Shown here piece after piece: positions 18,422-20,113 of a stretch of 42,286 bases of DNA (positions are counted from its first letter, which is position 1; each line of letters starts with the position of its first letter). A model generated the notes under the pieces. That model ran no database searches. It was given only the letters and a program-made list of their open reading frames with translations, and was not told the DNA's origin. Both the position numbers and the translations under genes were made by a program. This stretch comes from Arenicella sp. (GTDB lineage: Bacteria > Pseudomonadota > Gammaproteobacteria > Arenicellales > Arenicellaceae): the NCBI GenBank assembly GCA_023301745.1, contig JALZVW010000066.1, forward strand, positions 1 through 42,286, written 5' to 3'.

Positions 18422-18625
18422 ATGAAAGCAGACATACATCCAGCGTACGGCAAAATTAACGTAACCTGTGCATGCGGAAATAAATTTGAGACAGCATCAA
18501 CGCTAGGCAATGACCTACATGTTGAAATTTGCTCTGATTGCCATCCGTTTTATACTGGCAAACAGAAGGTAATGGACACAGCAGGCCGTGTTGGCCGCTT
18601 CAAAAGTCGTTACGGCAAAAAATAA
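18422..18625 (+). CDS. rpmE: 50S ribosomal protein L31, zinc-binding form
   Basis: A 67-residue L31. It starts M-K-A-D-I-H-P-A-Y and carries four cysteines (C16, C18, C37 and C40, the last two as [12 protein letters not shown]), so it is the zinc-containing C+ form rather than the zinc-free paralogue. The [10 protein letters not shown] end is typical. A good AGGAG lies 6 bases before the ATG. It has its own promoter and its own terminator and so is a single-gene transcription unit. C+ L31 also serves as a mobile zinc reserve in other bacteria, but no zinc-free paralogue is present in this window. Confidence 0.97.
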
Positions 18626-18665
18626 ATTTCTCGCAGTTAGAGTTATTTTTCTCACAGATGAGACG

Positions 18666-18692
18666 AAAAAGGCGCTTAATAGCGCCTTTTTT
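18666..18692 (+). terminator. Rho-independent terminator of rpmE
   Basis: Stem GGCGCT/AGCGCC with loop TAAT, preceded by a run of A and followed by six T. The A and T runs extend the stem, and the A-run would also serve the opposite strand. It lies 40 bases after the rpmE stop. Confidence 0.9.
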
Positions 18693-18874
18693 AGTGCTCG
18701 TTAGCAACACTAAGACGTAAATTGATTCATAAATACAGAGAACCCGCTTGCCGACACGGCAAATATCTTGCTCAAAAAGCTGACCCCAGCCGCTAAGACT
18801 CATCAACGCTTCCTCAAAGAAGGAAAGTTCATCGTAGTGATTTTTTAAATTACCCCAGAAATCAACATTCAGTG

Positions 18875-18899
18875 TTGAATAGTACCGCTTAAGCCCCAT
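18875..18899 (+). promoter_or_regulatory. Candidate sigma-32 (heat-shock) promoter upstream of rpoH
   Basis: TTGAA (18875-18879), a 14-base spacer and CCCCAT (18894-18899). In E. coli the groE and dnaK heat-shock promoters have TTGAA or TTGAT and CCCCAT separated by 13-14 bases, so the fit is good, although the base before TTGAA is G rather than C. The start point would be near 18907, about 45 bases before the CIRCE element. The match was made by eye and short motifs occur by chance. Confidence 0.45.
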
Positions 18900-18951
18900 C
18901 AGTCTATTAATCAGTTATAAATATTTCCGTTATTAACAGAATTTAAATTTA

Positions 18952-18978
18952 TTAGCACTCTTCATGTGCGAGTGCTAA
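18952..18978 (+). promoter_or_regulatory. Perfect CIRCE element (HrcA operator) upstream of rpoH
   Basis: TTAGCACTC (18952-18960), a 9-base spacer and GAGTGCTAA (18970-18978) match the CIRCE consensus at every position. CIRCE is bound by the heat-shock repressor HrcA, normally in front of groESL or dnaK operons. Here the only downstream gene is rpoH, whose ATG is 99 bases further on. hrcA itself is not in the window. Confidence 0.95.
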
Positions 18979-18995
18979 TATGCTTTTATAGACAT

Positions 18996-19014
18996 GTTGC
19001 TAATGATTAGCAAC
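18996..19014 (+). promoter_or_regulatory. Second inverted repeat between CIRCE and rpoH
   Basis: GTTGCTAA (18996-19003), TGA, TTAGCAAC (19007-19014) is a perfect 8+8 palindrome with a 3-base centre. It contains the same TGCTAA and TTAGCA hexamers as CIRCE but in the opposite order, with the dyad turned inside out. It could be an operator for another regulator or a hairpin in the rpoH mRNA leader. Confidence 0.6.
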
Positions 19015-19077
19015 CGCTGAACATCGCTCAAACGAGTGCCTAAATTAGGGCTCAATGAGAGCACAGGAGAAATCACT

Positions 19078-19923
19078 ATGGCTACTGCTAACCCAGTATC
19101 TCTATATCAAGACACTAATTTAGCGGGCTTTTTGAAAGTCGCTAATAATGCACCAGTGCTCAGTGCTGAGCATGAAGCTCGCCTTGCTCGAAAATTTCGT
19201 GATAACGAAGATGTTGATGCCGCACGCGAACTAGTTGTATCTCAACTACGCCATGTTATTCACGTTGCCAAAGGCTTTACCGGTTATGGTTTACCAGTCT
19301 CAGACCTTATCCAAGAAGGCAATATCGGCCTAATGAAAGCGGTCAAGAACTTCGACCCCGAACGCGGCATCCGCTTAGTTTCATATGCCGTTCATTGGAT
19401 CAAAGCCGAGATTTATGAATACGTTCTCAAAAACTGGAAAATCGTCAAAGTTGCGACCACTAAAGCTCAACGTAAGTTGTTCTTTAACCTGCGTAAAAGT
19501 CGCAAGTCACTCAGCGCAATGACGGAGCAAGAAACCCAAGACCTCGCTAGCAATTTAGATGTGCCGGTTAAAACGGTACGCGAAATGGAATTGCGCATGA
19601 CCAGCTCTGATGTCGCGTTTGACGGTATCGACAGTGATGACGATGACTTTGTCACTAGCCCATCAGGTTACTTGCCCGACATGCGCTTCAACCCTGAAGA
19701 GTTAGCCATGAAAACCGAGACCAGCGACAATAATCGCAACGCTCTGTATGACGCGATTGCTGATTTAGACGACCGCAGCAAAGACATTTTGCAGCGCCGT
19801 TGGTTATCAGATAAAAAAGCCACTCTTCATGAACTGGCTGCAGAATACAATATCTCTGCAGAACGCATACGCCAAATTGAAAAACGCGCGATGCAAAAAA
19901 TGAAAGGCCAGTTAGCCGCTTAA
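19078..19923 (+). CDS. rpoH: Heat-shock sigma factor RpoH (sigma-32)
   Basis: A 281-residue sigma factor from the ATG at 19078, chosen because AGGAG lies 8 bases upstream and RpoH proteins start close before L-x-x-Y. Region 2 (L-I-Q-E-G-N-I-G-L-M-K-A-V through W-I-K-A-E-I-Y-E-Y) is followed by the RpoH box Q-R-K-L-F-F-N-L-R-K, which separates sigma-32 from other group 3 sigmas. Region 4 has the helix-turn-helix S-A-E-R-I-R-Q-I-E-K-R-A-M-Q-K-M-K. It directs transcription of chaperone and protease genes. The gene has its own control region with CIRCE and its own terminator, and is not next to ftsX as in many relatives. Confidence 0.96.
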   Translation: MATANPVSLYQDTNLAGFLKVANNAPVLSAEHEARLARKFRDNEDVDAARELVVSQLRHVIHVAKGFTGYGLPVSDLIQEGNIGLMKAVKNFDPERGIRLVSYAVHWIKAEIYEYVLKNWKIVKVATTKAQRKLFFNLRKSRKSLSAMTEQETQDLASNLDVPVKTVREMELRMTSSDVAFDGIDSDDDDFVTSPSGYLPDMRFNPEELAMKTETSDNNRNALYDAIADLDDRSKDILQRRWLSDKKATLHELAAEYNISAERIRQIEKRAMQKMKGQLAA

Positions 19924-19978
19924 TAGCGATCGTACTCTAAGGCTATTAGGCCAAACCTAGCTTCGCCAGCAAAAAAAT

Positions 19979-20007
19979 AGGCTCTTTCTTCGGAAAGAGC
20001 CTTTTTA
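19979..20007 (+). terminator. Rho-independent terminator of rpoH
   Basis: A near-ideal hairpin: a GGCTCTTTC stem, a TTCG tetraloop and GAAAGAGCC, preceded by A-rich sequence and followed by CTTTTTATT. It starts 56 bases after the rpoH stop. Confidence 0.95.
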
Positions 20008-20048
20008 TTGCCTGATTTAAGGCCGCGTTAAACTATTGCCTTTTTAGA

Positions 20049-20073
20049 CTCGAGCTTGTTTGTTAAGCTTGAG
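20049..20073 (+). promoter_or_regulatory. Inverted repeat upstream of gor
   Basis: CTCGAGCTT (20049-20057), loop GTTTGTT and AAGCTTGAG (20065-20073) pair over nine positions with one G-T pair. It lies 41 bases before the gor ATG and could be an operator or a leader hairpin. There is no T-run on the plus strand, so it is not a second terminator for rpoH. Confidence 0.4.
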
Positions 20074-20113
20074 GCTAGAAATAGCCAAAATCATTAAATA
20101 GGAATAATTGAAT

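Follow-up and report, generated by a model that had tools for sequence, protein, structure and literature searches.

Heat-shock control in bacteria is usually taught as two designs, a HrcA/CIRCE repressor or a sigma-32 activator, with groESL as the overlap between them. HrcA activity depends on GroEL, as established in Bacillus subtilis. The HrcA/CIRCE regulons of B. subtilis and other bacteria (groESL, hrcA-grpE-dnaKJ) share with the locus described here the same operator, the same repressor family, and presumed GroEL-modulated repression. However, the predicted target here is the gene for a sigma factor, so that the whole regulon would follow, and the operator overlaps promoter elements, whereas a groESL operator is found immediately after TTGAC-N17-TATTA. 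Escherichia coli has no HrcA (this control genome was negative) and no CIRCE before rpoH; its rpoH P3 is a sigma-E promoter, TTGAACTT-N16-TCTGA, the same motif that we find intertwined with CIRCE in other members of the class, while the present locus has a CIRCE and no sigma-E site.

For Geobacter sulfurreducens, a 2004 study predicted a CIRCE in front of rpoH, with the site at -51 (PMC545781, Table 8). It resembles the present case in that a perfect CIRCE stands directly before rpoH, hrcA is in the genome, and groESL is also a target (PMC545781). In contrast, G. sulfurreducens is a delta-proteobacterium and carries CIRCE at hrcA-grpE-dnaKJ as well, and the same paper describes no promoter overlap and no sigma-E part for the site. 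Our literature search found nothing further on CIRCE before rpoH, although older HrcA-regulon papers may have related sites. It also found nothing on the spread of CIRCE-rpoH in gamma- and beta-proteobacteria or on sigma-E interleaving, with older key papers lying outside the search. Permina and Gelfand reportedly treated the HrcA regulons of beta, gamma, and epsilon groups in 2003, Ueki and Lovley are said to have worked on Geobacter RpoH, and both bodies of work may contain related sites.

The operator and the rpoH unit

The window, the whole stretch of 42,286 nucleotides that was analysed, belongs to a marine gammaproteobacterium placed by its named relatives in Arenicella, Arenicellaceae. 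Positions 18952-18978 read TTAGCACTCTTCATGTGCGAGTGCTAA, with 0 mismatches at the 18 defined positions of the CIRCE consensus that we used (TTAGCACTC-N9-GAGTGCTAA, an inverted repeat with a 9-base spacer). The window holds no second match even when 3 mismatches are allowed, and none arose in 100 dinucleotide shuffles. The features of the region are as follows.

About 18670-18693, plus strand: rpmE terminator hairpin AGGCGCTTAATAGCGCCTTTTTT, read in the sequence, separating rpoH from the upstream unit
18874-18899, plus strand: possible sigma-32 (auto-activation) promoter GTTGAA-N14-CCCCAT, one mismatch to CTTGAA/CCCCAT, tentative
18952-18978, no strand: predicted CIRCE (HrcA operator), arms 18952-18960 and 18970-18978, spacer 18961-18969
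18952-18957, plus strand: possible sigma-70 -35 TTAGCA in the left arm, 4/6 to TTGACA, proposed from sequence
18973-18981, plus strand: extended -10 TGC-TAATAT, made of TGCTAA of the right arm and TAT beyond the operator
19065-19070, plus strand: Shine-Dalgarno AGGAGA of rpoH, from sequence reading
19078-19923, plus strand: rpoH, sigma-32, 281 aa, by TIGR02392 and RpoH box
19979-20002, plus strand: intrinsic terminator after rpoH, from the automatic scan

The operator lies 99 bp upstream of rpoH, whose product scores 368.6 bits against the RpoH equivalog model TIGR02392 (cut-off 323.1) and, when aligned, shares 50% identity with E. coli RpoH and carries the RpoH box QRKLFFNLRK. Upstream, rpmE (18422-18625, passing TIGR00105) is followed by a hairpin with a T tract that is absent from the list of the automatic terminator scan. 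Because of this hairpin on one side and the terminator after rpoH on the other, rpoH is a single-gene unit. The sequence-only reading of this DNA had described a perfect CIRCE before rpoH and rpoH as the sole downstream gene, and both descriptions stand.

That reading had also proposed looking for hrcA and for further CIRCE copies, and each search gave one. A single intact hrcA is present on contig C13 (TIGR00331 330.5 bits, cut-off 197.2), adjoining a gene read as nadK and having no CIRCE of its own. At up to 3 mismatches the 3.05-Mb genome holds two CIRCE sites, both perfect, the second being 54 bp upstream of groES (C134:2415-2441), and exactly two are present in most of the 21 Arenicellaceae genomes examined. 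The predicted direct targets of HrcA in this organism are therefore two, groESL and rpoH. In relatives, near-perfect sigma-32 promoters (CTTGAA-N14-CCCCAT) stand upstream of grpE-dnaK, and the family has no third CIRCE, so that dnaK would be under HrcA only through RpoH. The dnaK upstream regions were studied in relatives, which have dnaK, instead of in the window's genome (95% complete), where a search for a full dnaK gave weak matches only, probably owing to an assembly gap. No sigma-32 site was found before this genome's own hrcA or groESL at the threshold used.

Distribution of the site across the class

The comparison of rpoH upstream regions that had been suggested for relatives gave a uniform result. 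A CIRCE lies shortly upstream of rpoH in 21/21 Arenicellaceae genomes, and among these and 18 named family loci the arms are invariant and the spacer is free to vary. Of 80 named rpoH loci from a wider range (Arenicellales, Acidiferrobacterales, Muproteobacteria, one Methylophilales, and others), 79 have it as well, and the sequence of the remaining locus is truncated where the gene begins. At one further locus (L187, G028:C61:202300-203182) a tandem pair of CIRCE stands before a single rpoH at positions 268 and 300, one copy perfect and the other with a single mismatch.

Kinship among the Arenicellaceae sequences means that they cannot be counted as independent, and a class survey provides the fairer count. 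For this survey 114 genomes were drawn evenly from the class, close to one for each family and with some assemblies incomplete, and CIRCE upstream of rpoH was scored at up to 2 mismatches with orientation considered. The count leaves out the second rpoH copy of one genome (G050), which has two rpoH genes (L169 and L174) with CIRCE before one only. CIRCE was found before rpoH in 65 of the 75 hrcA-positive genomes versus 3 of the 28 hrcA-negative ones (Fisher p 7e-13). About 10 hrcA-positive genomes had none; the three that retain the site in the apparent absence of hrcA (G101, G131, and G034) possibly reflect assembly gaps. Gamma- and beta-proteobacteria with hrcA thus usually have a CIRCE in front of rpoH, and, as a correction to the earlier reading, the site is not peculiar to this one genome.

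Two genomes with no detectable hrcA, G087 (L180) and G085 (L146), have decayed CIRCE remnants before rpoH, for example TGAACTTTTTTGAAATTTGGCACTCTTATTTGTTGATGCTAAAAT in G087. In these remnants bases have dropped out of the arms, while both promoter motifs, sigma-E and extended -10, are intact.

Promoter elements within the operator

At the rpoH sites of the class, the right arm and a conserved AAT make up an extended -10 (TGCTAAAAT), which takes the form TGC-TAAAAT, TGC-TAATAT, or TGC-TAAACT at the 68 sites. More specifically, the third base past the right arm is T at 61/68 rpoH sites versus 5/34 groESL CIRCE sites (Fisher-tested), and at groESL the CIRCE comes after TTGAC-N17-TATTA. This difference in the flanks indicates that the rpoH operator overlaps its promoter, whereas the groESL operator is just downstream of one. 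In the window, the candidate -35 in the left arm is 18 bp from the -10; the variant common in relatives is TTGGCA (5/6 to TTGACA). The resulting sigma-70 promoter TTAGCA-N18-TAATAT is weak relative to consensus (8/12 plus TG), and a sigma-70 scan of 18600-20100 called no promoter, the extended -10 being recognised by comparison. The overlap of operator and promoter at rpoH sites is apparently undescribed.

A sigma-E promoter is also interleaved with CIRCE, at fixed offsets, in 43 of the 68 rpoH sites. Its -35, GGAACTT, lies 15-17 bp upstream of the left arm, and its -10, TCnnA, consists of the last two left-arm bases and the first three spacer bases. The groESL control sites showed such interleaving in 0/34 cases, and when flanks and spacers were shuffled the mean number of genomes with any overlapping sigma-E site was 0.62, with a maximum of 4. 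The arrangement was present in 43/59 genomes with canonical RpoE versus 0/9 without it (p 4e-5). It too is apparently undescribed. Canonical RpoE (TIGR02939) was found in 0/21 Arenicellaceae genomes, and the promoter GGAACTT-N15-17-TCnnA is absent before rpoH from the window and the 18 named family loci; in the window, then, the extended -10 promoter is the only one of the two that the operator overlaps. Weak matches in the genome come from about ten further ECF-like sigma factors.

The proposed circuit and its alternatives

It is highly probable that the 27-bp repeat functions as an operator for HrcA and that HrcA bound there covers the rpoH promoter and so represses transcription of the gene; we infer promoter use, HrcA binding, and repression at rpoH from comparison of sequences. 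In the unstressed cell, HrcA kept in its folded state by GroEL would occupy the CIRCE before rpoH and cover the extended -10, and probably also the -35, so that RNA polymerase would be kept off the promoter. When unfolded proteins occupy GroEL, HrcA would become inactive and groESL and rpoH would be derepressed together, after which sigma-32 could activate grpE-dnaK and the rest of its regulon. New GroEL would then restore HrcA activity and close the loop. The cascade of a repressor above an activator, as the sequence-only reading had put it, is supported as the best reading by the intact hrcA and the conserved site, but the coincidence of operator and promoter had been missed. In most other gamma- and beta-proteobacteria, where the same operator overlaps a sigma-E promoter, HrcA would gate the envelope-stress input to rpoH.

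Translational and stability control of rpoH, as in E. coli, may also be acting. A stronger form of this idea is that HrcA binds and has only a minor part in rpoH transcription, with RpoH set mainly by an mRNA thermometer and by DnaK and FtsH acting on the protein. The protein does retain regions like those of E. coli sigma-32 (at the 50% identity given above), and the rpoH leader folds somewhat beyond its shuffles (z -2.17, 5/200), with the Shine-Dalgarno paired with the coding start. However, predicted Shine-Dalgarno accessibility is nearly unchanged from 20 to 40 C, and relatives differ in the pairing. An E. coli-type thermometer in the leader was considered and rejected, as folding gave no consistent opening with temperature. 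Moreover, both arms are strictly conserved over about 65 families, which argues for real selection for HrcA binding. Such a minor role of HrcA at rpoH is therefore unlikely, though it merits consideration.

Alternatively, the main effect of HrcA may be to block, from downstream, transcription that starts at the tentative sigma-32 promoter at 18874-18899, limiting the self-amplification of RpoH with no promoter occlusion. This site is 52 bp upstream of the CIRCE, and because it lies upstream of the operator HrcA would need roadblock action there. Its N14 spacing is that seen before grpE-dnaK in relatives, and like sites with the same spacing occur at L046 and L047. Altogether three Arenicella genomes have a site of the sigma-32 type (GTTGAA-N14-CCCCAT or better) ahead of rpoH, which suggests lineage-specific self-activation. 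However, the 16 remaining named family rpoH genes that were checked have no such site in front of them, in contrast to CIRCE and the extended -10, which are near-universal, and we regard a main role as roadblock as improbable. A conserved relic, or a repeat retained purely for the -10 and sigma-E elements that its arms carry and that would be enough alone for retention, without any HrcA role, is an explanation with very little chance of being right, given that the arm bases beyond these elements (GCAC, GAG) are nearly invariant, that the site tracks hrcA in the survey, and that G087 and G085 have lost arm bases but kept the promoter motifs.

Returning to repression by promoter coverage, its wider history can be stated with less assurance. 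On balance we lean slightly towards the view that HrcA repression through an operator interleaved with sigma-E and extended -10 elements is the ancestral gamma/beta wiring, and that control of the E. coli type was derived after the loss of hrcA. If so, rpoH would work as an AND gate for envelope stress, through sigma-E, and cytoplasmic folding stress, through HrcA and GroE. The interleaving offers a testable prediction for how the two stresses are combined, and it makes the E. coli paradigm look like a reduced version. If HrcA governs rpoH in most hrcA-bearing gamma- and beta-proteobacteria, the two taught designs would be one hierarchy, and every sigma-32 gene would sense GroE load besides DnaK load.
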